Source: Bryopsis sp. KO-2023
Taxonomy: Eukaryota > Chlorophyta > Ulvophyceae > Bryopsidales > Bryopsidaceae
NCBI GenBank assembly: GCA_030272585.1
Contig: BSYQ01000010.1
Span: forward strand, 4,340,001-4,404,000
Reading direction: 5' to 3'
DNA: 64,000 nucleotides
Shown here: in pieces, positions 18,325 through 42,400 of the stretch
Layout: each line of letters starts with the position of its first letter
How positions within the stretch are numbered: position 1 is the first letter of the stretch
Notes under the pieces: generated by a model
What the model was told of the DNA's origin: nothing
Seen by the model: the letters and a program-made list of their open reading frames with translations, nothing else
Databases searched by the model: none
Translations under genes and position numbers: made by a program

Positions 18325-20242
18325 ATGCTGATGAACACTCTGATCACCGTCGCCTCTCGTGGTTCATGCTGACGCAAATTTCTGTATGTTGTAACGTAGT
18401 TTTCTTATGGAGCTGCAAGACCTATGTTGCAAAATTGTTCTGGCATTTTCTTCTGACAATGCAAGACAATGATTAAATTCTTGAATCAATTACTGGTTAG
18501 TATCAGGCACAGCCACCTTTTCTTCAAGCTTTCCGTTGATACTCATACAAGAAGCCTTTCTTGGTAAGAAGGCTGTCGAGTTGCATACCACTTCAAACGT
18601 AAACATTCATTCTTTCCCTCCCAGTGCTGTCACCAGTCAAATGATCGAATTCTTTTGTTGTTACACTTTGTTCCGTTGAGCATACAAATCCTCCCACGTT
18701 CATGGAAGAAAAGAAGAAGAAGCACACTAGATTAAGGCAATGCTTCCCCTCAGAATCACAGAGTGTCTTCATCTTCTGGTTGCAAAGTCATTCTCAAGGA
18801 GAAAACTCGCATCTAAACAAAGCGCTTTTGTTTAATCCATCCGTCCTCGCTCCTTGTTATTGGTCTTCGTTTCGTTCCGGCTTTGGGCTTTGGTCTTTGG
18901 GCACCTGTGGGTGGGGGAAGGAAGCTCTCGCTCCCTTGTCCCAAGAGACATGTTAATCCTTCGCTTCTATCAGTCTATAGCATGAAAACTGGATGCACCC
19001 CCAAATGCTGTTGCACATGTCTATAGAGCCTGAGTTGTACTGGAACTTCTATTCTTCAAGTAATCATCGACATACTTCAGAAAAATAATTTTGTACCCAA
19101 AAGCTTCCTGGGTGTTGTTGGAACTTCCCCACCCCCCAAAATGAAACAAAAAAGGAAGAAAGGTGTTGGAAATGGAATTCGCTCAGTTTTGTTGTGGTGG
19201 GTTGAGGGCTGTTGTATATACGTGGTATGGAACAAAATGACCATTATTCACTTGAAACACCTTCCTGTTGTAGTTCTCTCAAGTTGTTTTCAAGCTGTCG
19301 TTTGCCTCATGGATGATTCGAAATATCCCAGACCCTTTTTCTGAGCTTCATATTGCTTACCCAAGAGCCCTTCCTCAGTTAACTGCATATTGGTCTTTAA
19401 AGACCAATCTGTAAATTTACAAATAGTTGGTGCAAAAAACTTAAGTGATTGCATCTTGAACACCTTGAGCCACTTTTGCACCATTATCACCATAAGAAAA
19501 CAAACGAATTTGAAGAATAATAATCTGCCTGCAGTTTTAAAAGCCACACACATGCAAACCGAGAAATTTGTTCATTTTAATGAACCAACGAAATTCAGTT
19601 GTCCATCAAAAATGTTGTGACTGACATCTAGAAAGGAGGGAAAGAAAAGAAAAGAAAAGAAAAGAAAAGGGTTGTGAGGATTTGAGTTAGAAGTCTGCAT
19701 ATGTGATTGGTCTGGGTTTGAGATTGTAACTTTTAGTGGTGTTCGAAGATGTCCTTCCTGAGTTCACTGTATCGAGGTCGCCCAGCAACTCAAATCGACA
19801 CAAATCCCAACTCCCATTTCTCACAATTGAGCCCAGCTGCAGAACGCAATCTTCCCATTATGTCTGAATTTGCTTCAAGCAAACTTCTGGCGGCTCTGTG
19901 AGTGGCCGAGTCTTTTTTATATTCTGAAATAGCATCGTAGTTCAACGAATGCATTTTTAGAGAAACATACAGTGCGCTGAAGGTATAGTTTCGTTGGTCC
20001 GACGCCAGAAACATGCTCGGAGCGAAACCATGTGGGATTCCAACACTTGACCTGACTTCCAGTCAACTTTCCTTGTCGTTTTCTGGCCGACTGTACACCC
20101 CGTCAATCTGGACGCGGGTGTGCTCGCATTTAGCTGTGGCTCGAAAAGCAAGCAAACGAGAATGAGGGTGTCTACCGGACCCCTCCCGGCTTGTTCATAA
20201 ACGCACATATCCGTATCACTGAACTTCAGTGAAGGCTTGGCC
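18325..20242. other. 1.9-kb spacer without a supported gene
   Basis: Short frames only. It contains an AAAAG microsatellite at 19641-19669 and AT-rich stretches, plus presumably the Dabb 3' UTR and the promoter of the first membrane-protein gene. A 74-codon minus-strand frame at 20014-19790 and a 113-codon one at 20298-19957 have no family resemblance. Confidence 0.5.
19641..19669. repeat. (AAAAG)n microsatellite
   Basis: About six uninterrupted copies of the pentanucleotide AAAGA/AAAAG in a non-coding spacer. Confidence 0.9.
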
Positions 20243-21061
20243 ATGTGGAATCCAGTGACTTTGAGGTTCGCCGACGCGGACGCGGAAAGGCAGTTCATTG
20301 TGGAATTTCTGGATTTTCAGATCAAGTTGGACGCTCTGGGATATTGTGCTGGAGCACTCCTGGGGTGTTTTGCAGCAGAGGAAGGTCCGCTTGGGTTGCG
20401 GCTGCTTTGGATAGCGATCACACTTTTGATGGCTCCTTGCTGGGGCATGATGGCGGTATTTCGGAAGGAAATCTACATCAAATATCGCACTGGCATGATT
20501 CTTGCGCTTCTTGGGACCGCCTCCGTCCATTGTTGCTTGAGGGAGGCATCCCTTCCGCCGCCAGAGTCGGTGCAGGACCTCATCTTCTTCAGATTTGTCA
20601 AATCGTCGGGCATGATCGTCTGCTTCGGGTTCTTGGCTTTTCGTTTCCTCTTTCGAAACCAATTGCTGATGAATGTCTACTGGATCGCGCAGTTCAGGAT
20701 ATGGTCCTGGATTTGTTGCGTGCACTGCGACGGCTCGAATGCTGCGTTCAATACCGTGGTGGATTTCTTGGCAAGGCTCGATTCAAGCATCGTTTTGGTT
20801 CTGTCGTTGGCTCCGAATCAACCCGTGGCAGCGCCGCATGAGAGTTGCTCGAGGGTGTTACTCTTCAACAAGGCTACGCTGGCGATTTTCATTCCCTCGT
20901 ATTTCTTGTACAACAGTGAACTCGCTTTCAGGGCGGAGTTTCTGGTGAGGGGGGCTGCGGCAGATGCAAGAGCCAGAATTCTGGATTTCAAAAACACATG
21001 CCAAGGATCGAGCCTGTGGGTTTTGATTTGCGTGTCGATTGTGGCATGGGCGATGTTTTGA
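20243..21061 (+). CDS. Six-pass membrane protein, paralogue A (272 aa)
   Basis: Intronless, first ATG at 20243 (MWNPVTLRFADADAERQF). Five or six hydrophobic segments can be drawn at roughly 30-48, 58-82, 90-110, 115-140, 205-220 and 255-272. The juxtamembrane stretch FLYNSELAFRAEFLVRGAA, then DFKNTC, is shared with the downstream gene. The N-terminal pattern, T-L-x-F followed by an acidic or E-R-x-F/Y helix before TM1, and a loop of R-x-x-F-L type after the fifth segment, resemble the membrane input modules of protist class III cyclases and histidine kinases. No catalytic domain follows; the protein ends with the last membrane segment. Function unknown. Alternative: an orphan transporter-like family. 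Confidence 0.72.
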   Translation: MWNPVTLRFADADAERQFIVEFLDFQIKLDALGYCAGALLGCFAAEEGPLGLRLLWIAITLLMAPCWGMMAVFRKEIYIKYRTGMILALLGTASVHCCLREASLPPPESVQDLIFFRFVKSSGMIVCFGFLAFRFLFRNQLLMNVYWIAQFRIWSWICCVHCDGSNAAFNTVVDFLARLDSSIVLVLSLAPNQPVAAPHESCSRVLLFNKATLAIFIPSYFLYNSELAFRAEFLVRGAAADARARILDFKNTCQGSSLWVLICVSIVAWAMF

Positions 21062-22024
21062 ATCTCATCACAAGGACGCAGGGGGCAATAAATAAAAAAA
21101 ATAGAGAAAATCTTTTGTCAACATTCAAATCTGCTGGGCCTCTCGCAAGAGGGAAACAGCGGTCATTGGAAACAGTTTTTTTGTTCTAGAAACAATGTAA
21201 ATCAATGGAAAGGGGTTGAGTGTTTTTTGTTGTTATAGAAAGTATGTAAATGATGGTGCAGTGGAAGGGTTTGAAGGATACATATTTGTGGAACAGGAAA
21301 AGCATGGATCGATATTTTGCCAGAAAAGTTTGCAGACTGGTGATGCTTAGAGAGGCTCGTGGAAAGGGGCAGTATCTGTGTAAGAGATCGTTGCCTCTTC
21401 TTTAAAGAAATTTCTATCGTCTTTGAATCAACAAAACAACAGCAAAGATGATGAGCAGTAGTTTTATTTTTTTTCTCCTTTTGCTGGCATGCTTTAACAC
21501 GTCATGTGATTCTATCTTGCTGGGGCTGTGATTATCTGAATGGCAAGAATAGTGTTAGTATCCAACAACAACAACAACTACTCCAATCAAAAATAAATCC
21601 TTTAATGTCAACACCCAGATGAACCAAACCCACTCGAATCTCTCAGACTTGCTGATATAGTCGTGCCAGTATCCACTTGTCAAATGGATGGGATCGACAG
21701 TGGTTTGAGACTGCCGGTCATGTTCTATGCTGTCCGTTCATTTACGGTATCTGAGTTGACGTGAAGAGACAAAATGATTACACCAAGTGAAGGAAAAAAC
21801 GGCCTTCTCAACCACAAAAGCACAACAACAAAACCACCCCAAGAGTAACGGTTAATCTGGAGCCAGCATAAAGCCCAAGGTAGCACAAAACAGTTGGGGA
21901 GGGCAAAATCCGGGTCCAACGGCAAGATTCGTCACTTGCGACGATTCGCAAATATTGAACGGTTGGCCGAAGAAAATCATGGCGTGGGTGTCTGAAGTTC
22001 CACTCGTTTCCAGCAGGTGGCGAG
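21062..22024. other. Spacer between the tandem membrane-protein genes
   Basis: 963 bp with a short CAA repeat near 21567 and AT-rich sequence. No coding exon is supported. Confidence 0.5.
21087..21096 (+). terminator. Candidate poly(A) signals, membrane protein A
   Basis: Two overlapping AATAAA motifs begin 26 bp after the stop codon. Confidence 0.45.
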
Positions 22025-22849
22025 ATGGCGCCATGGAATCCATTTACCCTGACATTCTCCAATCGGGAGTTGGAAAAGAGATACACGCAGGAGTCGGTCG
22101 CTGCTCGGGTGATGCTGGACTGGGTAGGGTATTGCGGTCTCATTGTTCTAGCGTTTATTCCGCTGGAGGGTGATGGGGTCGTTGCGGAAATCCTGAAGGG
22201 AATTCCGAGTCACCTGGTGGCGCCCTACCTGATTTACTTTTGGAGCACACGAAGGGCGGAGTATCTCCCGCAACGGGATTTTTGGTTTCACGTTATACCT
22301 TTGCTGGGTTTGATTTACATCATCGGAAAAGATTGGCTGCTTCCCCCCCCCTCCCCCAACCTGAGGGGTATCCTCTCCAGGTTTTCCAAATCCCCTATAC
22401 TTCCCTCTATTTTCAACATGGGCTCTTTCCCATTGAAATTTAGACAGCAGATGCTCGTGAGTATGTGTTATTTCTTTGGGTTGATATTTTGGTCGAATAC
22501 CTTTTGCAACTCCCTGTCATGTGGGGTGGCTGAGGAATTTTCACCGTTCATTCAAAATTTTGGTTCCTTCAAAGACAACATGGTGGCTGTTGTGTCGATG
22601 AACGGCATTGGGGTGCTTGGACCGAAGCGGGAATGCTTCTCGGTGTTTTTTTTTTTTCAAGTCATGATAGCGATCGTTGTTCCTCTCTTTTTCTTGTACA
22701 ACAGTGAAGTCTCCTGCAGGGAGGACTTTCTTTCCAGAAGTGCTGCTGAATCTGAGAAAGCTAGCATCCACAATTTTAGCAGGGAGTGTCGGGCATGGAG
22801 TGTGTGGGTCCTTTTTTTTATCGTGGTTTTGCTGTCGTTTGTGTCATAG
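22025..22849 (+). CDS. Six-pass membrane protein, paralogue B (274 aa)
   Basis: Intronless and nearly the same length as paralogue A, starting MAPWNPFTLTFSNRELEKRY at 22025. Shared blocks: WNPxTLxF at the N-terminus, the first helix following LD(A/W)xGYC, FLYNSE with a nearby R-x-x-FL-x-R-xAA, then a C-terminal SxWVL membrane helix. Sequence between these anchors has diverged strongly, so the duplication is not recent. A homopolymer-coded FFFF sits just before the fifth segment. An AATAAA lies at 22890-22895. Unknown function; see paralogue A for the resemblance to sensor input domains. Confidence 0.72.
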   Translation: MAPWNPFTLTFSNRELEKRYTQESVAARVMLDWVGYCGLIVLAFIPLEGDGVVAEILKGIPSHLVAPYLIYFWSTRRAEYLPQRDFWFHVIPLLGLIYIIGKDWLLPPPSPNLRGILSRFSKSPILPSIFNMGSFPLKFRQQMLVSMCYFFGLIFWSNTFCNSLSCGVAEEFSPFIQNFGSFKDNMVAVVSMNGIGVLGPKRECFSVFFFFQVMIAIVVPLFFLYNSEVSCREDFLSRSAAESEKASIHNFSRECRAWSVWVLFFIVVLLSFVS

Positions 22850-23634
22850 TGGGTTCTTGGGGAGTGTATATATATATATATAGTTTTGCAATAAAACCCG
22901 AATAAGGAAAAGACAGCATTTCCTGATTTGTATTCACATAGTATGATTCCAACGTGAGAAATTTTCATTCCACATGGTGAAGAAAAGTATTTATCGCCAG
23001 AGAGAAATCAAGGGGCTTTGTGGGGTTGAATTCTGCTTATATGCTGGTGGACATTTGGTCAATTGGATTTTTTCTTTTTCACAGAAATCAACAGGTTATT
23101 ATTATAAGTGTTGCACACAGTGCTAGTGAGAGAGGGATGTAAGATAGTTGTCAGTCAAGAGATAGTTGTTGCCTCTACGTTCGCTTTCGCAAACACTAGA
23201 TATTGTGAGGTATTATTGTGCTTTTGGAAGTTTTTGTTTCTTCCTCATGTTGCTCTGTTGTACTGATGTGCATAGAAACACAGAAAAGGGCCAACACTTC
23301 TTTCTGGAGCTGAAAAAATTCTCTGCTGCACTCCAGGTTTCATGTTCTATCCTTTATTGAAACCTTCATCTTTTTTTCAATGTTTTTTTTACATGGTCGT
23401 ATGCTACATATGTACAAAAATTATCCTTCAGGATTCAAAGCTCTAAAAGCACCCCCCCCAAAAAAATAAAAACAAAACCAAAACCAAAACAAAACAGTGC
23501 CATTCGAACTTTCTAGACACTGCAAGACGGTCTGTTGATAGGACAACAACTACAACTGCTGCTTGAGCAGCCTAGTGGATCACCTAATTTAAGATATCAA
23601 TTAATTCAAAACTAATTCAAAACTTGGTCCTATC
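22850..23634. other. Convergent spacer before the giant gene's 3' end
   Basis: Contains a (TA)n tract (22866-22881), A-rich and CAAAA-type repeats near 23455-23495, and the 3' UTRs of membrane protein B and the giant gene. No gene seen. Confidence 0.55.
22890..22895 (+). terminator. Candidate poly(A) signal, membrane protein B
   Basis: AATAAA 41 bp after the stop, just past a (TA)n run. Confidence 0.45.
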
Positions 23635-26600
23635 CTATTCGTCGTTCGTCTTCAAAACTTGGAGGAGAGCATAGCAGTGCCCCACAAGCAGTTCTCCCGG
23701 CAACAAATCCGAAACAACATCTTCAACATCGCCTGCGCCGTCAGCATCCACCACAGAGCCGCTGGGCCACACCACACACCGTGGATCGCACAAATATAAT
23801 GCCAAAGGCACATCTGCGTGCACGCTGTCCTCCCCAGCGGAAAGGAATCGGAAAATAAACTGCGACAGGACTTTCCGAAAAGCGGAGCTTCTCAACTTGG
23901 GATTGCTACTTGTACCCCTGCCACCCTCGACGATCGAAAGCACTGCAGTCTGGATGGATTCATCCATACTTTGACGATATTCTGGACGAATCTCATCGCA
24001 AGACCCGGCCCCCAACAATTCCTCCACGAGTTCATACCAACTAACTATGTTTTCCATCAGCACACGACCAAACAAGCCGCCACCACCACTAGATGAAAAC
24101 ATTCTTTTTATTCTCTGATCGTCGATCCACGCGTCCACAAACTCGACGATGCTTGATTTCGGCGCGCAGCCTGTCCGCTTCAGCACACACATGATGACTT
24201 CCAGGGCTGCGAAAAAATCTACCAAACCATATTCACTTTTGGTGAGCATCTCCTCCCGAAGCGCCGCCACTTGGTCAGGTTCCATCTCCACCTGATCGCA
24301 TTTCGAAGCGACGTCCGAAATCATCGTCACGTGCCGCAGGAAAGTTTCTCTCAGGAACACAACTTCTTCCATTTCCTCCATATCTATGAAACACGCCCCA
24401 CCCAGAACGTACTCGACAATCGATGTCTCAATACCATGCATGTCGATCTCCAACTGCAACCCACGACCGTACCCAGTTTCCCACTGAATAAAACCAGATC
24501 TGACGATCAACGCTTCCAACTGGTCCAAATTGATGCCCAAGATCCGCTGTTTCCCAACAGTGCAAATCGAACTCTCCTCGATGCTTTGAGAACGATATTT
24601 CCGGCTGGCAGACTGGGTGTCGGCAATGATCTGTGAGAAATCGCGCAGGAATGTGTTTTGGACATGCACCAGATGTGTGATCAGCGCAGCCAGAAACAAT
24701 CCTTGGTTGCGTTTCTCGTACAGACTCATTGCAATGCTCGATTGCCTGGTCATCTCCGGGATGCCCCCTTCCAGATCAGTGCACTCGAACCTGATTCAAC
24801 GAGAAGAATGATATTCACTCAAACATCTTGTCTCCAGTCGATTTCCCACAGTCTTAACACAAAAACTATGCACAATGCCGTTGAAAGAAATCAATTCAAA
24901 AGAAGAGGGTCTTTTGAATTGACCCTCTTCTTATTCTAATCGGTTAAACAATCTCAACAAACCTTGTGGTCACATGCCGACTGGAATTCCATGCAGCCTC
25001 AAAGTCTCGATACAGGTCTTCTAAGTCAGGATGCTTCGTGAGGAATTGCCGAACGCTCTCTCTCACAGCTTCCTCCCTCATGATCTTGCGATTGAGTCGA
25101 GAGTGAACAGCTCGCGTCCATTGCAAAATTCCCCACAGATGAGAAACCGCCAGCACATGTCCATCCCACGAGGATCCAAGCACATCCAACAAATAGGCTA
25201 CCATGGGATGCGCACCAGCAATCTCAACGCTCCCATGAAATTGTTGACGGAAGACCTCCATTGAGATTGCCTGCCTTGTTCGGAAAAGCTTTTGAAGTGG
25301 CCTGATGGATGCACACACACAGACTCAAATGCTACTCTCAAATAGGTAGGGTCATCACCCAATACATGCCAACACAGAACATCTGCAAAACGACAGGAAA
25401 TCTTTAACAACAGGAGCAGCAAAACGAGAAACATATCCCACCTTCCATCTTCCAATTCATCAATTCGCGCCTCCAAGCCATGCGCATGGCCCACACCGAT
25501 TCTTTCGGTGTAGTCCGCTATGGATGTCTGGACATCGTCGCAGATCGGCTTGACCACATCTTGCATGAACCGATCCTCCCACCTATCTCTGTCCTGAGAA
25601 GCACCCAGGACTGCCACCCTGAGGGCGCCATTTTCTCTGAGCATCAATCCAAATCTTGACACGAGCGCATTGAGCAGCAAAAACCCTCTCTCCTGCCCAA
25701 TACCAGGTGGGAGCAACTCTTGAAGTACCACCCAATCCCTGTCACACAACTCCTGCAATGCGGTGGTTGACCCGTTGAAAGTTTTCATCAACGCTCTAAC
25801 TTCATGTGCGTTGAAGAAAGATCCCCAACGCATCACAGTGTGAATCCAGAGCCTCAGCAAACGGAAACCAAATGGGGTCAGATTGCGAACAGATCCATGG
25901 GAGCTTTCATTGGCCATAGGAATGATGTAGCCAGGTCGAGCAGGTTGAGGTGCTGCGTGATCAATTCTCCTGTTCGATCCACCACCGCCAATCATATTTC
26001 CGCACTGAAGGCATCTATAGGACTGATTTGGTTGGCCACAGTTCCCAATTGCGAACATAAAGTCACAATGACCACACTGGTATCTTGCCCCCCCTTCCCT
26101 GGATTCCATTGCCTGGAAAGCTACCCTTCTCTCATCCTCAGGCATTGCAGGAAGAAAAGCTCTGGCCAGTCTGTCTCCAACCTGCCAAGCGATGCTCAGT
26201 GGTGAAACTCCTTCCCCGACAATCACACACAGGATCAAGTTGATCTGAAGAACTATGCTCTGCACATGGTGTGCATCGACTGATTGTGATGCCTCCAATG
26301 GGGTTCCAGCAAAATCGTTCGAAGCGAACTTCACTAGCATTGCTCTGTCTGATGCCGGCCACTCCAGCCGTATTCCCACCAACTGTTGAACAAAACTCTT
26401 CTCTTCTTTGTCAAGATCCCTCCAGAACCTGGGCAAGTAGAACAGAGCCACCGTCGCTGCAATCATCGCACGACGCTGATCCGGCCTTTGTGCAGCACTT
26501 CCGAGAGCTGCCGACAAGGCCTGCGTTTCTGTGGGCTTCTGTATTGCTGTTGCAATGAGGACCTGGGCCTCCTCAAACCCAGGAATGAGATTGAACCCGT

Positions 26601-29600
26601 GCGATTTCACCTTATCATTTCCTTCCAGTGGATTCCACACAAGGGGTCCCCCCAAAATGTCAGCCTGGCGTAAGTCTGCTGACAGCTCCCGAATCTGCTG
26701 TATCCCCAATCCATCCCTCCTAAGAACCTTGAGCAGGTGCTCATGCAAAGCTTGGACACAGTCCGATTGTGAACTCTCAAAAGCCTTGGAAAGGCTTTTG
26801 AGGATCACTTTTACAGTATCGCCTTGATGCTGGAAACCTTGCCGAAGGGCTCCCACCTTTTTGCCCCCCACCTCCTTCGACCCATTCCACCATCGCTGGA
26901 TACCGGACAAAAAGCCTGCCTTCCGAGTCGACGATCCTCCTCTGTCCATCCACCGACCAAAGAGACCAGGAAGGCTCTCCAGATTTGCTCGTAAAAATGC
27001 AGTCGCAATAACCACCATGAAAGTTCCATGTGAACCAGGGTCTGCCAATATACGAAGAGCATTGCTCATGTACGTCTCAACCCGGCCCGCATCCCGCGGA
27101 GTGTCAAGCATTGCATGCACGAAGCCATCCATGGCGAACACTTGCATACCATCTGCTACGAGTGCCACTGCATGCGAATCAACATGACATTGAGAGACTG
27201 CATCCCTCATCACGGCAAGGGATCCTCCTAAGAAATCTCGAGGCCCGTTTCTCATTGCATCCAACAAATGTAGTGCTAAAACAAACTGGCAAGATGGTGA
27301 AATCTCTTCTTGGTACTCCACACCCTGAAGATCTGCCCCAATCCCATGCAACATGGAAATCACGACACTCATCGAGCAGGGTGGCACAGGTTCCTGCATG
27401 ACATAGCCCCATGCGGCTTCGTAGCAATCCAACCGGCCTTGGGTTGATGTTCGACTTTCGAAACAGCTGGAAAGAAACTGTGACATCGCTCTGTTCAAAG
27501 AAGCAACCATGATTGGGTTGGGGACAGCATTCAGCAACTCCCCTAAAACTCGATCAAGAGAATGAATGCCACCGGCGCTCCTCAGCACCATCCTACTTTC
27601 GAAACCAAGGTGAACTCCCAGCTCTTTGACGATTCTGACACATCCGCACTCCTCATTCTCAGCCCCCGACACAGCCCCCATAAAGTTGACCACGCCGTGG
27701 TGATCTGCCAGAATCTCTCTCTCACCATGACTCATGCGATCCTCAAGGGCATGCAACTTACTAAGCACTGAGTCAGACTCTGTGACCCAGCTCCTTGCGT
27801 CCTCCATGTTTTCGATTGCCTCCATGTCAGACCTGATCTTGCGCAGCGTCAGTCTCAATATGTTGCTGTTGGTGACTTGATCCCCTTCTGACAACCCATC
27901 CAAATGTTGCAGTAAATCTGGGCAAATATGCATGAGCTGAACCAGTGAAGATATTTCCTCCCTCTGGCTCCACCAAACAATGTGTGCCAAAATGCAGTCC
28001 ATGGTGAAATCCCCCCTTTGCTCCATTGACACTCTCGCTTGATGCAAGGCCCTCATGAACACCGACCGGAACACCTCGACGGATGCAACGAAATGCTCAT
28101 AGGCCAGGGCGGTAACAAAATCAGAGACATATATCTCAGGGTGAAGACTGAATTGATCCTTCAAGACGGGGTGCAAGGTGGTCTCCAACCTTTCCACAAT
28201 CTTAATCCCGACATTGGAGGTGGTCCCGTCATGCTTCTCTTGGCGGTACAGCTCCTCCTGACTTTGGATTGCATCGATAATGCCATGAACAAAAGGCACC
28301 CCCAGTGGCGGCTGGAGGCCGACTGAAAAGTGCTCAAGCCCTGCAGGGTCTGCAACATTGTCGATCGAGACCAACCTATCATCCAGCAGCAAATCCCTCC
28401 AGATTTCCTTTCTCTCCGAGTCCATGTGGAAATAAGACTTCAGATTGCTGCCTTTTTCAAGCACAAAAATGAGTTTTGCCACCAGGTTCTTCACCCGCTC
28501 CTCCACAAACAACTCAGCCGCCCGAAGAATGCCACCACTGTTGGCAACCTTGGCTCGACTGCACGCCACCTCTTGCTGCCAAGCTCGTCTGAGATTGACA
28601 CCCTCCAGAGCTTTTTCAATCCTCAAGCAGAAACAATCCATCAACTTCGAATCCCCTCTCATCAGCGTCACCACCTCTCTAATGTGCCCCACCGAATCCA
28701 ACCGAGCATCATACTTCTGGCAAAGAAAGCAACGGAACAGCACCTTTCCAATAACCTCCCTCAACGGAAGCGTTTCGGTGGTCAGAATTTCAAGCAGACT
28801 GTCATTCAAGAGCCTTTCGGCCGAGACACCCTCTCCATCAGGATCGCAGACAAGGACCTGGTCCCAACCAGAGAGAAAATGGAACTGCCAAGACTTGCTC
28901 GCCCGTTGTGAAATCTGACCCCGGTCCATCTGAATCACCACACAGACATGCTTTTCGCCCTTATCCTCCCCGTTCCCTTCGGCCAAGTACTTGGTTCGTT
29001 GTTGGTCCACCAAAAACCGCAACAACTGGAATGCTCTGCCATCCTGCCGAGACGACGCCTCAAACATCAGCAGCTCGGGACCCCAGCGGCTTTCAGAAGT
29101 GAAAAAGCTCTTGATCACTTCCGAAATGGACCTCTCTGATGTCAAGGTGTGCAGCTGGTACCGCTGAACATCCACCACAGAAGCAAGCGATTCGATGGTT
29201 TGAGGCTTCACAGGCAATTCCGTCATAACCACCAGCCGGGACGATTTCCTTTCACCAGTGTTCTGACCGGAGCATGAACTGGAATCCCCCTGGTCCAGCT
29301 CCAGCTCTCTGGACAACAAGTCTTTCAGGCTGGTGGGTCTGGACAAGAAGTATTTCGCACACCATTCTCGAACATCACTGATGTCAGCCCTTGCTTTCAC
29401 GGACCATTTTGCACGTACTACGCCATCGAGGAATGCTACTTTGGACAGCATGGTTTTGCAAGCTTCCAACAACTGATCTTCCGAAGGTCGGGCCTCCCTC
29501 GACAGATCCCGGTTGCATCTGAGCACAAGAGATTTCAACGTGATGTCGTTCAATCCTGCAAACATATCCTTCGGTCCGAATGCCTGGCCGGGGTCCCCTG

Positions 29601-32600
29601 TGGCGGAGTCTGCCTGCGTTGAGATTTCCCCGACCCATTGCTCCAAAATCCTCAAGATGTTTCTCATCAATCTGTTGAAAAGGAAATCCAGGTCCAGATG
29701 CTGTTTTTCAAATCGATTCAAAAACGGGGGATCCGCGTTTTCAAGCTCGCTGTGGTCCATGAACACAATGCACCGGAAATCAGGATGCACATGGCACATG
29801 GGGTTGCTGTGCGCTCCCAGTGCTATTCTGCAGTATTTTCTTCCGCCCACTTCAGTGTAGTTCTGGTTGAGCATATCGTATAGGGCCCCATAAACCTTAT
29901 CAAGGTTCTTGAGCACGAGGACTCGGCCTTCACCCAAACAGAGCCTTATCTTGCTCAGCACCCTGTGGAAGCGCAGACACATTCACATGAAAATCAATGA
30001 AACTGAGAAGCACCCCAGACTGGGAAACCACATCAAGATGTAGTTCTTAAATGCATGCTTCCCCCCCCCCCCGAAACATATGTTTTTCTGTGCATAAGGT
30101 CAGGTTTTGCAACTGGAAGCACATTTTATCGGCCGAGGTGGCTGCCCTGTACCTGTATGTGTAGCTATCGGACTCATCCTCTGGGAAAGTGCTGCCATAC
30201 ATCACAACAGGCGATTTTTCCTTCAGGATGTCGTTTTTCAAAACATCCAAGACGAAATCTCCCTTCGTGATCAGCATGAGATTTCTGGACGTCTTGTCCC
30301 GAATGCTGTCTTTGATGAGCTCCTTCACAGACACAGAATCGCAGCGACCGCCTCCAATGTTTTCCATCACATTGTCGATGATTTGTCGAGTGGTCTGCGG
30401 GTCCAGCCCACCGAAGCTCCTAGCCAGTGCAACCCCGAATTCACGATCGCTCAGGTCTTCCTCGTTTGAAGTCACCGCCCTTTCGCACAGGGACTTGATG
30501 AGCGAGTAGAAATCCCTCAGCCCATGGAAATTCTCCACAGGTTGCTCGGAAATATATCTGTGGTACTCGCTGGCCAAGCTCTTGATCTTGTCAGACGTGG
30601 AGAAACTCATTCTCCTGCCAGCCATGATCGAACTCTTGATGGCATCCGCAGTCCTCTCTAGATCTTTCACCGCCGGGTCAGGTCGAGACAGGACAATGGC
30701 TCGATTCATTTTTGCTGCATCCAGGGCCCAATTGCTTATTCCCACAACAGCCACATCGGGGCGGTCTTTCGGATAGCCAGGTTCCAGCAAACTGTGGAGA
30801 ACCTTCAGAGGATTGTGGGGAGAGATCTCAGCCAAGCCAATCTCATCCAACAGCACCACAGGCATTGTCCTTCCATCAGGCTTCAGAAACCTAGCAGCAA
30901 TACAGCAGTCAGAATCTATGTCAGCCAGCCAATGAGGGTTTGTTTCAGGGGTATAGAGTGCAGTGACCTACACTGGAATTCTATGATGTCGAAAGCACGT
31001 GCATGCATTCTCTATTATAGATATTATTCATATATATATATACAAGCAACGCCCTTGTTCTTTTTCTATGCAAATGCCTTTCTTTTTCCCTGCAGATAGA
31101 AGCAAATTTCAATGGGTAGATTGAAACGCAACAAATGTTGAGGGAAAACCTAAAGCAGGGATACATTGACTCACTTTTTGGCTTTTTGGAATATCTTCAA
31201 GATGCCATCGGAGGTCGACGTTTCGGAGCCTTGAAAGGACACGAATATGATCTGGGGGAATGACCTGAACAGCTCCTCGCTGGAGTCCGGCCCTCTCAGG
31301 TTACTGTGAATGAGTTGCAGCGACAGAGACTTACTGCATCCAGGTTTCCCCACCATGAACAAGGGAAGCCGGTTCAAGATGCACACGATTCCAGCAAACA
31401 CATTCTCCAACAGAGCCCTGTTTTTCGCAATTCCACGAGGGAGGGTCATTCTTGCAATGTAATCCTCTTGTTCAGCTTGCAACACGTGGAGGAAATGTTG
31501 TGGGCTGATCCCTATGCGATGCTTTTCAAACGCAGCAGAAATCTAGACCCAAAAGCACAAGATTGTCACGATGCCAGGCCTGCACTGGATTAGGGTATTT
31601 CTAACTGAGAAGTCAAGGATTGAGACATGCTGCCTCGATGGCGCAATCGGCCAACCATCTTTCAGAGACAAAAATGTACAAAATCTCATTCAAAACCTAC
31701 TTGCTCCAGATAAGCTCTTCTCAGATCCGCCTCCCCCAAGCGCATGTAGTAGCAGATGGAGAGTGACAAGAGGATAGATCTTTTCTTGACTTCCTTTTCA
31801 TATTCTTTTTCTCTGCGAATGCGGCCCCCTCCATACAAAACATAGTCCAGGGCCTCAGTGAGCATCGCAGTGTCGTATCTCTCTGATTTTGGACTGGTCA
31901 GCAGCTTTTCTCGAAACCAGCCAAACAAAAGAATCCATCGCTTGAAATCTCGCAGGCTTGTGCTCCATGGTGTTTCCACAGACCGAATAAACTCCTGAAA
32001 AACCGTCCATGTCGTGTGAAATCATTGCACAGGGAAGAAAAAAATTCAAGAAAAGACAGCAAGGTGGAACTGGAGTGTTTGGACGTGGGAAGGAGCCATT
32101 GTCACTGACCTGAGATAAAAGTAAGACATCCGTGGTTGCTTTCAACAAGCCTGAGGCTTCCAGGCACCTTGCCTCGGAATCTTCGAGCATGCTGGTGAGA
32201 TACAGCCGCTGAGCTTCTTTGCTCAACTCTCCGTAATCCCAGACATATGCCATCATGGTTTCCGGAAGGGGATGCACACTACATCCCATTCACACGAAAA
32301 ATCGAGCAAGATCGATACAAATACGACCCACCAGCATTTCCAATATATGTAATGTCTCACTTCCAAGACCAGTGAGTGGCCGACAAATGCTTGTTGAAAT
32401 TAAGACTGTGGGATATTTCTGTGGGAAGAGGTACCCTTGGCTCGTTTCTTCTCCACAAATGTGTCAACACTTAATTACGGCCTAAAATTCCATTTTTCCC
32501 CATCCTGGTTATATTTCTCACCTGTAGACGAGCTCCGTCCTCCTATTTCGCCTCGACAGCTCATATCCTGCCGTAGGAAGAGACCTATCTTTGACCCTGT

Positions 32601-35600
32601 ACGGATTGCAAGCCACCAAAATCGTCACCCCTGGCATCAAATCCCTCCCATCGATTTGCTTGTGACACACCAGGTCGTTTATCATGCCCAGCTCGCTGCA
32701 AGTATTGATTTCATCCAGAAACGCCCACACTTCCTCCCCAGTGGCTTCACAATCAGCTTCGACACTGTCAATGAACTTCCTGATTGCTTTCCGGGATGTT
32801 CCTGCATGGATGTTGAGTGTCTTGAATTCGACTTGGCTCATCCCAGCAAGATACCTGATCAAGCTGGTCTTTCCACACCCGGTTTCACCCATAATGACGA
32901 CCGGCACATCCGCCCGGATACGAACGTGGAGCAACACCATCTTGAGGAAATTGTCCGGGGTCAATACGTAGTGACAACCATCGAATGGTACCATTTCGGG
33001 TAAACCCATTATTCTCAACAGATGCGTGCAGAGCTCCCAATGGCGGAGTTTAGAGAAATCGGGTAAGTTCCCCTCGTGTTGGCTTAGTATCAATTCCGTC
33101 ACGTTTTGAGGCACCCTTCGGATGGATCTATACACCGCTGTGATCGAATGCCCATCCCCTTGGTTGAACAAGATCATCAAATGGTTGTTGTCCTCCCAGC
33201 TGACCAGCCTTTTCACTCTCTGCGCCATTCGCTCTTCCATAGGGACTTCCAGCAAAGCAGCTTGCTGTTGCTGAGACAAAAACGCGGCCGAGCTGGACTC
33301 GATCGTGAAATGCCTGGAAACTTCGAGGAGGGACGTCAGCAAATCCAACCTAACAGCCGGATTCCTCCCAACCCATTGGAGCGTTTCCACCATGAAAAAG
33401 CAGCTCAGGGACAAACTTCTCAATTGCCATGCAAACACTCTCAGAAACGCCATGAGGACTGAAAATGATGGGGAAGAGACATGCTGGCAGAAAGCTGTTT
33501 GAAGAATGGTGCGACATTGCTCAGCATCCAGCGGTTGAACCCCAACCGCATCCAGGTTCAGATCTGCGTGTGCAAAGGTCGAATTTTCCAAAGCGGCCAG
33601 ATGGTGACAGACGATTTGCACATCCGAACTGAGGTCTTGGCTGACCTTCAATCGTGACAAATCCCACTCCAGGTGCTCCCTGGAAAAAGGTGGCAATTCT
33701 CCAGAACTGCTTCCTCCTCCAGTAACATCAACGACTGGTGCAAGCTGGCAAAAGTGCATCCCGATCCTGAGCTCCTCGCAGAGAGTGTTTGCCAGCTCAA
33801 TGGAAATCACTGTGTCTTGGTCCACGTCCAGCAACAAACAGCTCTCTTTGGAGGATGTATGGTTCAAAACTATCAGCTCGAACAGGAAATTGTCCAGCCC
33901 TGCGATCCAATTCACCCCCGACACATCCAGATGAATGTTGCTGGCCTCCCTACCAGCAAGGTGCCGCTTGGTTTCCTGGACGAGGTCATGATGCAACAGG
34001 GGCCCACCGATCGGAACAGTGATGGACTCTCCATTGTACAGCGATTGAATTTCTTTCACTCTGTCCGTTTTGCCCATTCCGGAAGCTTCAGATGTCAGAA
34101 TGACGACAGTGGGACCCTCCTTTTCAAACTGTTGTGCGAAAAGCTCCCCGACCTCCTCGTCTGACATTGCCTTGACGGGACGAATTGCTCCCTTGAATTG
34201 ATCAACAAGGTAGCAGTGCTTCGATCCGCTCAGAATGCCAAATTTCCAGTTTTGGTCTTCACATGGCCTGCTCATATTGGCAATATATTCCGCCACTTGG
34301 GTTTGAACCTCCACCAGGAGACTATCCACACCGGCCAAGCAAAAAAGCCTGCCATCCCTGCAAGTGCCTTCAGAGCGCTGGCATCTCAACAGGAGGAGCT
34401 CAATGTCCTCCCAGTCTGTCGATTCGTTGCAAATCAACAGTTCGCCTGGTTCCGGGAAGAATCCGCTTGCAGCGTACATCGATAAAATCACATTAAAGGC
34501 ATGGTCTCTGTCACAAATACCGACGAAGACCTCTCCGCTTTCCACACAAGCTGATGCATGAACAAAGTCAGTTGGAATCGGCCTCCTTCTGGGTGGTAGA
34601 TCCGCCAAATCCTCCAACCATTCCCCAAGTTGAAGAACTTTATCCTCCGGGACCTCCACGGGTGCCTCCACTTCACTGGGCATTTCCTTTCGCATCACTT
34701 CTGGAGAGAGTGCTGACAAAATCTCCCTCACATCAGCCCATCCATTCTGTTCGCAAAACACCTTGTTCCATACATAGGTGATTTGCCTCGAGCGGAGGAA
34801 ATTCAGCACGTAGTATCTCTGCCTGGACAGCCTCAAATGCTCTTTCCAGCCCTCCAAAGATTGCTCCAAATCATCCCTGAGTTGGGACAGCTCCAAAGCC
34901 AGTTCATCGACATTTGCATTGGATTCGTAAGTCCACCTCCAGTCGTACATGGTGAAATGGCCGACATCAGCCAATGCCTTCAGCAACGCTACAATTTCTG
35001 TCGACAAATCCACCACTTTGATGAACACCTGCATTTCTTTCTGATCATCCATGCCTTCCCCATCATCCGGCAGACCGGGTGCGTCGATCAAAAGCAAGGC
35101 CCTACTCCGATAATCCTGCAAATCGGCCATGCTATACTGTATTTTCTGGATACCCCGTGCATTTCTCAATTTCAGCACACGTTGTGTATTTGGGTAACCT
35201 GACTTATCGGTGTCGAAAGCAAAACGGCTACTGGTCATGGCATGCTTCACCACCACTTTCGTGAATTCCCCCCTGTCAGACACCCTTTCGTACAGAGACT
35301 TGATTGCGAATATGTTTTCGCTGACCAGCTTCAGCTGGGGGGCGATCGGGTTATCAGTCGTGCTGTGCCTGGCCAAGAGTTGTTTCAGGTTTTCCATAAA
35401 ACCCTCCAGCTCGATGCCTTCCAACATCACCAAACCACTCACGAAACCTTTCACGGCAATGAAACAAGCCACCGTGTCTTCCCGAATGAACGAGTCGGAA
35501 TCTTCTACAGAATCGCTCAGCATGCGGATGTCCTCATTGCCGATTTCCTTGACAAATTGCACCATGTGTCTGCCCGAGGACAGGTCACATAGCAAACCCA

Positions 35601-38600
35601 AGTAATCTCTTAAATGCCAGCCATTTGGGCATGTGTTCTCCAAAAGCAATCGAATCTAGAAGGCATAAATCCATACATCAGTTCACAACGCATCAACACA
35701 CATCCAACAAAAAATTCTAAGAAGGAAGTATCTCCGATTGAAAGGACATTACGACATCTGGAAAACCAAGTGCAGGATTACCTTTCTATAGTCTGACGCA
35801 AATTCCGACAGGATGCTTTCCCTGCTGTCCCATTGATGAAGCACAGAAGCGGTGGTAGCATGCATCTCGCCTTCCTTGACCAAGCTCCACACATTCTCTG
35901 TTTGCTGCAGAAGAACGGCCAGATTTCGCCCACACACCTCCCTATCCTCCAGAGCTTGTTTCGCCACCTCTAAATCCCTCACATGATCCCTCACATGAGT
36001 TGATGGACCCGATTTGCGCAAGTGGGTTTCAGCCAGCCTGAAAATTTGACAAAATGACAAAAAACACAATGAAGATTGAATTGCATAATCTTTGACTATG
36101 AAGGCTCCTCTTGGTGATCCCCCTTCTATTCATTTTGAAAAGGCTGCCGCTTGGCTGCATTGGTCGTTTACATTTTCTCAAGTCAAAATAAATAAATAAA
36201 TAAATCAAAATTTTTGCAGCTCGCAAAATCTGAAAAATCACCTGAACTCCTCCTGAATGGAGCCCCCCCTGTGACAAGCCAAAAGGAGTTTAAAAGCTTG
36301 GAACAACAGCACTTCGTCCTTTTCGACCAAAGGCTTCCACAAGTCTTGGTATCTTCCGAAAGCTGGGTCAATGAGGCGGATGCAGTCTGTCATTGTGTGT
36401 GGTGGGTCTTCCTGGTTGGCATCGCTATAAGACTGCAACGCTGAAATGAAAACCGCTGATTGACTGAACGGATGCATCTTTCTGGCAATGCCACTGATTT
36501 CGCTGAGTTTTTGCCAGCATTCGTTTTCATCACTATGCAGCTGATTCACACAGGTGCTGGGGAGCTCCCTTTCCCTTCGACGCAGCAGGTTTAGGTACTC
36601 CTGATCAGCACAAACTCTCTAGTCATCAAAAAGCATGCCCTTTTATCCAGAAATGACATGAAACATAGTTTTCCCAACCATAGAAAAAGAAGGAATATTC
36701 AGCACGCACTCAACATGCATGATTAGGCTTCCATCAGTGATTTGAATAAGAAGAATAATTATGGTGTGTCGAATCACCTCAGTAACGTTGTGGGCTCTGA
36801 ATGGTCTGCAAATTTTCTCCACAAAATCCTGCAAAGTACTCATTTCATTTTGAGTTTCTGCCAGGGCTCGTTCCATTCCGATCAGACTTCCATTGACATT
36901 CCTGAGATGCTCTGCATTCACTGCCACAGGGAACTTTTCGAAATTGCCCCTCCTGACAAGACTCGTGCAAAACTTCTTCAGTCCGTCAGACCTGGCGATC
37001 ACTTCCTTGGCATCTTCGACATTAATGTTGCCCTGCACCACAGCTGTCACGATCCCATCTACCCAAGCGAGCAATCTAGTCACACAATCATGTATGTTTT
37101 CTTCAGCCAAAACCTCGACCTGGACCTTCACAACCCGTTCCCAAAACTCTGCTCCATTTTCGGACAATGCCTGTAGTACAGAGATGAGAGTTTGTGCACC
37201 CAGGCCTCTCTCCAGTCCATCAAACGGCGACACTTGATCCAATATTATATTCATGAGCTGAAGAAGACTATGAGGAATTTCCTTGGCAAAGGGAGGCACC
37301 AGGGCATCAAAACACTCCTTCGCTCTGCTCCAATCCACTCCCCTGGTGGGTCGCCTCAGCCGATTCCTTTGCAAACATCTTTTCGCACTCGAAAAAAATG
37401 CATCCACGACGGCAGGGTTTTTCACGGAAGCCATGGAGTGACTGCCTTTCAGCAACGCGACGACATCCTCATTCTCAACCTTGTTCTGACACTTGATCAA
37501 GAGTTCGCCTCTTATCTCATCCACGAGGCCCTGACTTTCTTCAACACCTTCCAATGTGTGGAGCAACTCCTCCACAACCACAAACCCAACCCTCAAAGAT
37601 CTGTCATGACGGGCTTTCATCCGAAACCTCTGTTCAAACCACTGATCACACAGGCCCACCAATGCATCCCTGTCATTCATGGCTTGTGCGCAACTATCAA
37701 CTACTGCAGAAGGTAGCATATTGAGGAAAAAGGTCTCCACAAAAAAGTCTGGCCAGGGGGCGCCATAGTGCATCACTCTGCCATGTTGCAACCCGTTTGC
37801 AAAATCCAGTAGCCCACGCTTGAACACAGATCGATCTTGAACAAAGGATGTGTACATCCCCTGATCTTCCCTCGACCACATCCCGACATTCCCAACATTG
37901 TCTAACAAAATCGCCTTGACAGCAGAAACCAAAACATGGGATTCCTGGGCAGATGAACTGGAACTATCCTTTGCAGAACCCCATGCAATGGGGTTAACCT
38001 TTTCCACACCCTCCCCCTCCTTTCCAGGCGATTTGCCGTCGACACTGTTCTGTTGAGTTTCCCATTCCGCTCGCATTGTTTTCATCATATCCAGACGGCT
38101 GTCATGATGCTTCCTGAACAGCTCTTTCAATCGGGAACAAAGGACACTTTTTGACCGACGAAACACCGAGTGTGATGCCAGCATGAAGATGGACCGCACA
38201 CCAGGGGCCGCGGATATAATGAATCGAATCAAATCCATGCTTTGAGGGCTCTCCAGCAATTTTTCCACCTGAGAAACTCCAACAAGGCCTTCCACAGCGG
38301 AGATGAACTCTTGGTCGGTTCCTGGTGAGGGTACTGTTGTATTTCCTGGAAGGCTCCTGTAGCCCGTCTGAGATTCCCATGCATGTCCGAAAAACCCAAT
38401 GCTTCGGCAGGCAATTAAGAGGTTAGGAATCTGTTGAATCCACTCGTAAGAAACATGAGATGATAGCTTCACCATGAAAGCAACACACTCACAGCGATTT
38501 TCCCAAATGCCGTTCAAAGCCCATGGTGGGATGGATGAGATGTCAGGGTTTTCCTCTCTGACAAAAAATTGGAACCCATTAAAACAGGACAAGAACATGG

Positions 38601-39462
38601 AGCATGCTGTATTCAGTTGGGTATCATGAGTCAACGTCCTATCATGGTGCGCCAACACAAAGCATCCCACAACAGCCAGAAACACTCTCCTCAGGTCGCT
38701 CTTTTCGGTTTCTTGACAATCGCACAGCTCAGGGATTGCATTCCCCAATGACATAAGGAGCACTCTAGCTTCAACCTCAGGTTTCCCTGCCCCATTCAGC
38801 CTCCCTTTCCATGCAATCGTATCCACAAGGTTCAAAACATCCTCCAGGGTGTCCACGAGGCTTCCGACAGAATCCACAGCTCCAGTCAAGTACTGCAGGA
38901 AAATCGCCATTTGATGCCCTCGAGAGCTGTTCATTCTGAACTCTTTCGTGCCCCCCTTCTTCCCCTTTGGAAATATGAAATTGTGTCGACCTGGCCGGGC
39001 ACAGTGTGGTTCCCCGGAGTCTACGGTGACCTTTTGCTCATCCAAAAACTTCAGTGGGTTGAGTATCCCTCTTTTTTTAATCATCAGAATGTTGAACTGC
39101 AATCCTGGGCACTGCAAGTTTATGGGGGGGGACATCCAATGATTGGGACTCAACCCCTGGTGCATTTTCACTGCATTCTCATGCTCTCCATTCCCAAGGG
39201 AGGCCCCCTGTCCTGATATATACAAACCCCCATCGATCTTGTCTGGTACCAGAACATGGAAGATGGTTTCATAGCTCTCATCCTCTGGCGGACTCAGGTG
39301 GATGGGTGCACTCCCTTCCGAGATCGGAGGTGGTGTGGATTGTTCGAATGTTTCTGATGTCGACGGGGAATCGAGGAGCAGATGGACAGTCAGGGCGGCG
39401 CCGGCATTGTCCCCAGCATCGATCTCTATCTTGACTCGGACGTCTTCCTCTGGTTGTTCCAT
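23635..39462 (-). CDS. RNF213: RNF213/mysterin-like giant AAA+ RZ-finger protein, ~4,678 aa
   Basis: Eleven phase-consistent exons: 39462-36778, 36618-36242, 36037-35782, 35655-32522, 32278-32110, 31994-31701, 31542-31175, 30890-30153, 29962-25442, 25301-24963, 24790-23635. Human RNF213 is 5,207 aa, a dynein-like AAA+ ubiquitin ligase on lipid droplets and bacteria. Residues about 65-165 look like a CBM20-type carbohydrate-binding fold (FHVLVPD...LYISGQGASLG...NHWMSPPI). A degenerate P-loop SEASGMGKT is near 1633. AAA3 has MGETGCGKTS (about 2030) and Walker B FLDEINTC (about 2088). AAA4 has VGKPGCSKS (about 2370), Walker B LLDEIGLAEISP (about 2443) and sensor GISNWALDAAKMNR (about 2480). An RZ finger at about 3966-4000 (QCGHC...GNCGQP...RCLQCGNMIGG) precedes NLTPFGFRLLRLW. 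The start is the first ATG of exon 1 and could be preceded by an untranslated exon. No RING finger is visible. Confidence 0.87.
25302..25441 (-). other. Intron 9 of the giant gene, largely open in the upstream frame
   Basis: Donor GAAG|GTGGGA and acceptor CATCAG|GCC give a 140-nt intron. Removing it joins LEDGR to PLQKLFRTRQAIS in frame. If it is retained, the upstream frame stays open to 25198 and would end in a wrong 3' tail, losing about 497 C-terminal residues. The length fits the other introns of this gene (115-284 nt). Confidence 0.8.
36187..36206. repeat. (AAAT)n microsatellite in giant-gene intron
   Basis: About five copies of AAAT/AATA inside the 204-nt intron between exons 2 and 3. 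Confidence 0.85.
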
Positions 39463-42400
39463 GTTCCGTCCGACTGAGGTGCACAACTCGTATTAGTAAA
39501 CCGAGCGAGAATCTGTCACCTTCTTTATGGAAACTGCGGCCGAACCACAGCTTTGCCCCCTACGCCGACAGGCTGTGCTTCACTCGCAAGTCGGTGTCTA
39601 ATGTCAATAGTTGAGTGCGATCAACTTCAAAAACTACACAGACGAGCGGGTGGTGGAGCTCACAACTCTGCAATAACACATTTCCTCACTAGATCTCTTC
39701 GAAAGGGAAAGCAGATCAGGAGAGAGGGTCGGAAACAGCGTACGAAACGAAAGTCGCTTCGTCCTTTTCCCAGGGGCTAACCCGGATAAGAAACAGTACA
39801 TTGATTGAAAGTTCCGTTAGCGTGGAATAGTGACTCACCAGCGTTGTTCCTTCAGCGTTGCCTACCAACGAAACTACTCAAACTATTCGCGTCACTGAAG
39901 AGAGCAGCGACTATGTGTGAGTATACATGGTTCGTTCGTTTGTTTTTGATCGCCCGAAACCGCCGTGTTGCACACGGTAACTGATGGGAGGCGGTCGTGT
40001 ATACGGCGGCAACGTGGCTAGCATCACGGGCTATTGACGCTATGACGTAAGCCATCACCCACATGGTCATGTCTCATCTATTTGGGGAAAATCATGAAAC
40101 GCAAGATTTTCTCCACAGAACAAAAAGAACTTCGAGGGTTTGAGGACAAAGAGACGCAGTTTTGTTACTGTGTGTTTTGGAGCTTTTTACGCAAGTCCGC
40201 CTTTGTTTCCATAATCAATCAATCCAATGTTCAACCAATGTCTTTGTTTTAGAGGCTGGGCTTTTGTTTCAGAGGCCTTGTCTTCCCACGACTGAATGTA
40301 CCAACAGTCTAATGAACATTATTACAGACTGCTGTCTTGGAGGGAGGATACAGCTTCAGATTGGGTTGCACGTTTGTCGTCTTGTAACAAAATTCCGTGG
40401 ACAGCTGTACACATGTACCCATGTGGCGAATGAGAATGGCAATAGGTTTTCAGACGAGAGGAGGGTCTTTGAAAGTGTGTTACTGTATAATTCAACGTTT
40501 TGTTCCAAACCTTTTTTAACTTGAATCTCTGAATTTGTTCTCATTTCTTAAAAGATTTGAGTAAAACAATGGGCCACAACAAAACGAAACAGTATTCAAT
40601 CAACAAATTCGACTCTTTCAGCTACAGAACATCAATAACTCCTTTAAGAATTAAAAAAACGAGAAAAGACAAAAAAGCCGCTCAACCTGATGGGTCCGCA
40701 ATCCAGAATCTCATAACAATAACTCTCACATACTCACTCGTACCCCTTCACATAACATCAGAAACATGAGGAACTGGGACCACCCAGCCAAGCTACTATC
40801 AGTCAGTATGTGTAGATAAACTCATATCTCGTACTTTTTCCAAGAGTACAACTCTTCGACTCATGTCGTTTCCTAGGCAAGTCTGATCCTGGTTTATCAA
40901 CAAGAGGCAAATTCAGGGCCAGTCTTGGGCCAGCGAAATTGAGGCAAAAATACACTGGTGGCAAGCCTGAAAACAGAACGAGCGATAAAAAATGTTCTGC
41001 AAGGAGGGAAAATTTCCATGAACTCGAGGCTAAAATGAAGTTTGAGAGAGATGAGAGAGAGAGCAAAGAGCTTTTTGTTCGGGGCCAGTGGGTTCGAATG
41101 TTTGAACAAAAACAAACAAACGTTGCTTCCGAACGAGCGTGAACGTGGGCACCCCGCCCCCAACCATCTATGCACATCGTCAATGGAAGTACTGATCCCG
41201 TTAATCACTCATGGCCCGCCACAAGTCAATCTCCAGCAGAAAATGCACAGAGAACTCGCAGTGTTCCCAAGTGTCTACCTGTGCTTGTGTGTCCGCTGCT
41301 TCAAAAAATACACTCCGCACGCAGCACCTTAACCTGTTTTTTCCAAAAAAGCCTTCGCTTCGCTTAAGGCTAGGAAGCTTACCGGGCTGCACTTTTGAGC
41401 TAACTAGGTCGAAGCATTCGGAAACTGGTTCTGGGGAGATCGAGCACGTACCTGTAACTCGGCGAACTGAACTGAACAGAACTTGACCATTAAAAAGAAC
41501 GGTACGTCAAAAAAACATTTCTGTTGTGCCGTCAGGCGGCGTGCGCACTTCGCGGTTGGACCTCTCGTGGTTAGTTTTCGTTGTCGCAAATATTTGCCAC
41601 GTTTGATTTCGGTGTTTCCATTCTTTCTACGGAAAGGGACGTTACAGAGCGGGTTTTTAGCCCTCCAGGATGGTGGTTTTTGTATGCGAGTTCGACTGGG
41701 AGTATATTTTAGGTTTTCGAGGATCGAAAGAGTGCCTGCTTTTCAAGAGCATAGGAAATACATACACCAAGGCGCAAAAATGTACGCGACGATATGCGCG
41801 AGTCAGATCCCCCACTGCATGAAAACACTCCCTTTTGTTCGCAGTGGGGTGGGTTAATAAACTACACACACCGGAAAACAGAACGAAACCGCAAACTCTT
41901 CGCCCGTCTACCCTTGCTATTTTAGTACCCATTGTATTTTCCCTCTGATACTCCCGCCTGCATGGAAAGACAGAAAAAAAGCCCTTGGATGTTCTTCATG
42001 AAATTCCAGAGAAAACAATGATGTTTCATTTCATCCCTTGGTTTTCTGTTGTGCATTATCTCCCAGGCTCTTCTGTTGCTTCAGAGAAAACTACAGAAGT
42101 TTGGTCTGATTCCCCTACAAGGGGAGAATGCTTGATTGAGTTTGGGTGGATTGTTCCTTTGGTGAAGACAGCTCAGTGTTAGAGACAGGTGAGGCAATGT
42201 CTTTCTTCTTTTCAGTTCACTTGCCAAGATTTCAGAATTTTAACAGTTGCAAAGAAAACCATATAATTTTTTTTTGGGGGGGGGAAGAGCATGTTGCCTA
42301 ATTCCACCCTTTTCGACCAGCAAGAAAATCACAACATGAAAATCCTCATGGTGGAAGTTGTTTTCAAGGAGGGATATTTATGTTTGCTTAATTGCTGTTT

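Follow-up and report, generated by a model that had tools for sequence, protein, structure and literature searches.

The window analysed here, a continuous stretch of 64,000 nucleotides, carries on its minus strand (39462 to 23635) a gene that we read as encoding a genuine giant E3 ligase of the RNF213/mysterin family predicted to work without a RING finger, and we place the probability of this reading at roughly three in four. RNF213 is a human infection-fighting enzyme, named for its RING finger, and most work on it concerns its part in vertebrate disease and immunity. What is new, judging from the predicted protein, is a form of the family that keeps the RZ finger and its catalytic cysteine, lacks the RING and has an altered zinc site. 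Membership of the RNF213/mysterin family, proposed in an initial annotation of this DNA, was strongly supported by comparison of the predicted protein with PDB sequences, RNF213 being the best match for the AAA1-AAA3, AAA4-AAA5 and E3 pieces alike.

RZ finger and E3 module

The RZ finger (PF20173; amino acids 3962-4004, 25972..26100) was observed C-terminal of the AAA block with an E-value of 9.8e-9 and a score of 35.1 bits against a cut-off of 27. The E3 piece matched RNF213 at 5.2e-8 in the PDB, and all five of its matches were RNF213, each of them a mouse sequence. Alignments to mouse and human RNF213 placed the putative active site between C3970 and H4009 (25957..26076). Within it, C3982 aligned with the catalytic cysteine of mouse (by phmmer) and human RNF213, the second cysteine pair followed C3982 at the mouse spacing of 9 and 3 residues, and the IGG turn was kept. 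The candidate zinc ligands were C3970, H3972, C3973, C3991 and C3994, giving a site of the form C-x-H-C...C-x2-C as opposed to C-x3-H...C-x2-C in mouse and human. For comparison, the mouse RZ is described as holding zinc via C4451, H4455, C4471 and C4474, carrying ubiquitin on C4462 and using H4483 as the base (PMC12075652). H4009 lies in an IDH triplet like that of human RNF213 and was paired with the catalytic histidine by MAFFT across a six-residue gap, which makes it the probable partner histidine and a candidate general base. A model of the RZ region computed by AlphaFold without an alignment was uninformative, with a mean predicted local distance difference test score (pLDDT) of 44.

Several observations weigh against a working RZ-dependent ligase. 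The E3 module was weakly conserved, with about 220 amino acids around the RZ aligning significantly (34 bits) and with mouse entries only, the human entries missing the threshold of E<=0.01; the 690 amino acids before this RZ-centred stretch, together with the C-terminal domain, gave no significant match in the PDB. The interval from the first zinc cysteine to the catalytic cysteine was longer by a net one residue. The mouse zinc histidine H4455 faced a phenylalanine (phmmer) or an aspartate (BLAST) here and not a histidine, so H3972 or C3973 must replace it, and zinc is probably held by C3970, by C3973 or H3972, and by C3991 and C3994. The ungapped phmmer alignment to mouse paired S4003, not H4009, with the catalytic histidine, and H4009 is for this reason a probable rather than a certain base. 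To these can be added the CBM20 match at the N-terminus, described below, which fell under its curated cut-off.

Some of these features also make up the case for an RNF213-derived AAA machine whose RZ lacks E3 activity and which would serve only as an ATP-driven scaffold or coat. The zinc ligand pattern is altered, the partner histidine is displaced and the E3 module is poorly conserved, and in mouse RNF213 the mutation of any RZ zinc ligand is described as abolishing activity (PMC12075652). We nevertheless consider an inactive RZ unlikely, since the catalytic cysteine, the first zinc cysteine, the second cysteine pair and the IGG turn are all kept where their loss would be expected in a dead domain, the mouse spacing is retained from the catalytic cysteine onward, and the Pfam RZ match stands above its cut-off.

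RING-less architecture and AAA core

The gene had earlier been called a complete mysterin, a description that failed on the RING finger, which neither Pfam nor a loose pattern search recovered; on its predicted sequence the protein is an RNF213-family variant without a RING and not a complete RNF213. The Pfam scan of the 1,506 amino acids of exon 9 at E<=10, in which program filters discard most matches above about 0.1, listed the RZ alone. As a positive control, a 543-amino acid fragment of human RNF213 put through the same scan returned the RZ and several RING families, the best being zf-C3HC4 (3.9e-7). The loose RING pattern was observed once in the human fragment and was absent from the 4,678 amino acids of the protein and from all six frames of window positions 23001-40500. 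Only three CxxC motifs were present in the entire protein, two of them within the RZ.

An ordinary RING-bearing RNF213, with its RING in an unrecognised exon or lost in assembly, would explain the same result, and it draws some strength from a gene model that was predicted from genomic sequence and not from complementary DNA (cDNA). In the human fragment, however, the first RZ cysteine lies some 508 residues downstream of the RING start, and the equivalent place here falls within the single uninterrupted frame of 1,506 codons, so that a missed RING splice is unlikely. With no loose pattern in the six frames and not one ambiguous base (N) in the window, we regard a hidden RING as highly improbable.

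Published work on RNF213 addresses the consequences of losing the RING. A mouse RNF213 with the RING deleted showed autoubiquitination like that of wild type (PMC7311170). A further study describes the ubiquitylation of Salmonella and Listeria as intact after RING inactivation, with RZ mutants failing, and also reports a partial impairment on RING loss in the case of the Toxoplasma vacuole (PMC11549300).

In the AAA core, the best PDB match for exon 4 (AAA1-AAA3) was RNF213 at 2.5e-32, with the best midasin match at 2.1e-14, and the 15 distinct sequences matched comprised nine of RNF213, five of midasin and one PPR protein (0.0068). The AAA4-AAA5 segment matched RNF213 at 4.8e-68, all nine of its PDB matches being RNF213, and was 38.6% identical to human RNF213 over 459 aligned columns; the query of this PDB search was joined as in a 12-exon gene model that was later dropped, insertions included, and the E3 query is identical in both models. 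The stop-to-stop frame containing exon 9 likewise gave RNF213 for nine of nine PDB matches (best 2.5e-33). The Pfam matches of exon 4 were to AAA families of a generic kind, including some named dynein-related (AAA_5, 4e-6; AAA_7, 1.1e-5), as expected because the RNF213 core is itself dynein-like. Dynein chains were absent from the PDB matches listed for exon 4, the AAA4-AAA5 segment, the E3 piece and the exon 9 frame, and midasin was absent from those for the AAA4-AAA5 and E3 pieces. A midasin or dynein paralogue, for which the midasin match to AAA3 and the AAA_5 and AAA_7 matches might speak and which the initial annotation had named as the outcome that would contradict its proposal, was ruled out by the far better RNF213 match on exon 4, by RNF213 as the sole molecule listed for the AAA4-AAA5 and E3 pieces and by the presence of the RZ finger, and we give it next to no weight.

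Two of the AAA sites, AAA3 and AAA4, are on their motifs competent-looking for hydrolysis. Both keep the Walker A lysine and the Walker B glutamate, in AAA3 as K2035 (MGETGCGKT, 32866..32892) and E2088 (FLDEIN, 32704..32721), each supported by PDB alignment, and in AAA4 as K2376 (GKPGCSKS, on exon 7) and E2444 (LDEIGLAE, on exon 8). In human RNF213 the AAA3- and AAA4-type sites are the ones named as catalytically active (PMC11549300). A Walker A-like motif was also observed in AAA2 (SEASGMGKT, amino acids 1628-1636, 34066..34092) and aligned to mouse RNF213.

At the other end of the protein, amino acids 68-118 (39109..39261) matched Pfam CBM_20 with an E-value of 0.02 and 15.1 bits, under the cut-off of 23.3, and no other of the 24,736 families in the library was listed. 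None of nine shuffled controls gave any Pfam family, and a search of the PDB at E<=10 returned no sequence match to it. The single-sequence AlphaFold model of the N-terminus was uninformative (mean pLDDT 30). We consider an N-terminal CBM20 domain probable from this match. The CBM20 of human RNF213 spans residues 378-515, and the point mutants tested there left recruitment unchanged (PMC11549300).

Gene model, neighbourhood and relatives

Splice reconstruction from the sequence gave 11 exons with consistent phases, separated by ten introns of 115-284 nucleotides, all GT-AG. The coding sequence of 14,037 nucleotides encodes 4,678 amino acids followed by one terminal stop, with no internal stops. 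Its guanine plus cytosine (GC) content was 50.6% overall and 57% at third positions, as compared with 40% in the introns. The count of 11 in-phase exons and the length of about 4,678 residues given in the initial annotation agreed exactly with ours, and the RNF213 signature motifs were all located in the order it had stated: MGETGCGKT (2028), FLDEIN (2085), VGKPGCSKS (2369), LLDEIGLAE (2441), GISNWALD (2478), the RZ cysteines (3970-3994) and NLTPFGFRLL (4034). The open frame of exon 9 runs to 1,506 codons, a length to be set against a maximum of 300 codons over all six frames in 200 mononucleotide shuffles, and this length together with PDB matches to RNF213 of up to 4.8e-68 led us to reject a chance frame. 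We inferred the splice sites of this model from the sequence, and the start of exon 2 is ambiguous, an alternative at 36600 (18 nucleotides later) giving a protein of 4,672 amino acids. A 12-exon model with a 46-nucleotide mini-exon was dropped, two of its junctions having inserted stretches not found in human RNF213 on alignment; the 11-exon model was preferred because better splice sites remove both insertions.

Exon 1 (36778..39462, amino acids 1-895), defined by an open frame and a GT donor, holds the N-terminus with the CBM20-like match and the start of the stalk, which continues through exons 2 (36242..36618) and 3 (35782..36037), both placed by splice phases. Exon 4 (32522..35655, amino acids 1107-2150) contains the end of the stalk and AAA1-AAA3, with its RNF213 match in the PDB as support. 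Exons 5 (32110..32278) and 6 (31701..31994) were placed by splice phases. Exon 7 (31175..31542) carries the AAA4 Walker A, within the segment matching RNF213 in the PDB, and exon 8 (30153..30890), resting on the PDB match and its sequence, carries the AAA4 Walker B and GISNWALDAAKMNR. Exon 9 (25442..29962, from amino acid 2674) encodes AAA5-AAA6, the E3 module without a RING and the RZ finger, supported by PDB matches to RNF213 and by Pfam. The C-terminal domain occupies exons 10 (24963..25301) and 11 (23635..24790), both set by splice phases; the latter ends in the stop codon, and no part of it matched the PDB significantly by itself.

The surrounding window contained several identifiable exons. 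A run of PPR-repeat exons was observed at 43855-49014 on the plus strand, with low-complexity frames between them. On the minus strand, 13190-14107 held exons of a 2-hydroxyacid dehydrogenase (Pfam), which we take to resemble plant hydroxypyruvate reductase, and 3063-3554 matched a Pfam tRNA-ligase CPD model named fungal at E 7.4e-6, with a P-loop-like stretch at 5477-6010 that had sub-threshold Pfam matches only. The minus-strand frames across 3063-6010 presumably resemble a plant-type tRNA ligase; the tRNA-ligase piece gave no meaningful match in the PDB. A THD_CWZF match, in what we take to be a plant family, was below cut-off (E 0.11 on one frame and 1.2e-4 on a rough join), and a HIT-domain exon and a kinase exon were also identified on the contig by Pfam. 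The Rfam scan of the window was empty, as was the tRNA scan, for which the bacterial code was used.

The flanking genes had been put forward as green-algal and the genome as one of the green lineage. The PPR exons, the sub-cut-off THD_CWZF match and the frames resembling plant tRNA ligase and hydroxypyruvate reductase make a green-lineage genome plausible, and we regard a green host as likely, though domain matches of this kind fall short of proof. The contig could instead stem from a contaminant or a different protist, such as a bearer of a green secondary plastid, either of which is compatible with a RING-less RNF213-family ligase. The flanking gene names derive from Pfam and recall, and the tRNA-ligase model is named fungal, but the PPR, HIT and 2-hydroxyacid dehydrogenase exons and the sub-cut-off THD_CWZF match lie on one gap-free contig of even GC content (0.405-0.514 in 2-kb steps), and we see a non-green source as somewhat unlikely.

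Other features were observed in the window. A tandem repeat at 47065-47177 (40-bp unit, 2.8 copies) lies where one frame ends and another, containing PPR repeats, starts. On the plus strand, two hydrophobic proteins encoded side by side, each in a single frame (20201-21061 and 21959-22849), share 28% identity over 272 positions and form a local tandem pair, with no Pfam family above cut-off for either. A Cupin_5/DUF985 protein was found at 62024-62755 on the plus strand (Pfam 9.6e-41).

We found no relatives of the RNF213-type protein in viral contigs in five scans, one of them run with a query joined as in the dropped 12-exon model. Of two scans of prokaryotic genome contigs, the first returned none and the second a single contig, CAMOWA010000103.1 (L001), from a bin labelled Bacillales. 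Positions 3-4241 of L001 form a frame of 1,413 codons, open at both ends and about 22% GC, that contains an RNF213 AAA3-4-5 core and is 33% identical to AAA3-AAA4 of our protein over 646 aligned positions. Unlike our gene, this is an AT-rich, open-ended frame, and the RZ was not found on it or elsewhere in its genome among the 25 best-ranked of 27 Pfam families, a weak negative because the RZ profile matched none of 14 control genomes. Exon 9 gave matches in that genome only on L001 itself. Within the family of L001, one of 291 examined genomes matched, which was L001's own, and within its phylum nine of 392 did, namely L001's own and eight at 19.4-25.9 bits that we have taken as chance AAA similarity. 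As the sole matching genome among the 291 of its family, L001 is probably protist DNA within a bacterial bin. With it, the RNF213 core is seen in two microbial sources that differ greatly from each other.

Proposed mechanism, significance and known systems

Our best reading of the protein, by analogy with its animal relatives, is an ATP-gated, RZ-dependent transthiolating E3. Following mouse and human RNF213, ATP binding by the AAA ring would switch on the E3 module, and a cysteine-reactive E2 (UBE2L3-like) would hand ubiquitin to C3982. With a histidine, probably H4009, as general base, the ubiquitin would then pass to a protein or non-protein substrate. With less confidence, the CBM20-like domain and stalk may choose the surface to coat, whether a microbe, a vacuole, a lipid droplet or another organelle. 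The roles known from animals (bacteria, vacuoles, lipid droplets) are candidates extrapolated to this protein.

The role of the RNF213 RING is disputed, and in mouse cells and in vitro it is the RZ that does the work. A distant RING-less member that keeps the RZ and its catalytic cysteine is a separate, evolutionary line of evidence for catalysis by the RZ alone, and also provides a test protein. Should the host be a green alga, the family would be older than animals, and its oldest role, whether in microbe defence, at lipid droplets or elsewhere, would become approachable in a simpler organism. We suggest tentatively, with somewhat less than even confidence, that RNF213 is an ancient eukaryotic machine with the RZ as its sole original ligase, that the RING is a later insertion into its E3 module within the animal lineage, and that a RING-less, CBM20-tipped RNF213 may still act as an ATP-sensing, surface-ubiquitylating coat in photosynthetic protists.

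The ortholog alignment in the RNF213 structure paper covers five vertebrates, namely mouse, human, chicken, frog and zebrafish (PMC7311170). Beyond vertebrates, a cnidarian study names RNF213 as an immune effector that is induced in activated cells (PMC13319465), and a coral study places it among light-driven genes (PMC9481131). An algal or naturally RING-less RNF213 was not found among the full-text literature matches listed, a scope outside which subscription papers and preprints fall. Unstudied homologues may well be present in public protein databases.

Among known systems, midasin (Rea1) is likewise a giant six-AAA protein, with similarity to AAA3 at 2.1e-14, and differs in a match much weaker than that of RNF213 and, presumably, in having no RZ. 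ZNFX1 is, we assume, without a dynein-like AAA block. It has in common with our protein an RZ finger with a Cys/His dyad, and unlike our protein it is an RNA helicase (PMC12075652). RNF213 itself (human 8s24 and 9jw1, mouse 6tax and 7oik) shares the order of parts, from a probable N-terminal CBM20 through the stalk and the dynein-like AAA block to the RZ, along with two competent-looking AAA sites, the RZ catalytic cysteine and a candidate partner histidine; the protein described here differs in having no RING, in its altered RZ zinc site and in its length of 4,678 residues as compared with the 5,247-residue human chain. There is also a likeness to the delta-RING laboratory mutant of mouse RNF213, likewise an RNF213 body minus the RING, which keeps autoubiquitination in mouse (PMC7311170), and the protein of this window appears to be a natural counterpart of that enzyme. 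In the mutant a short linker replaces the RING within an otherwise mouse protein, whereas here the absence is natural and the E3 module has diverged.

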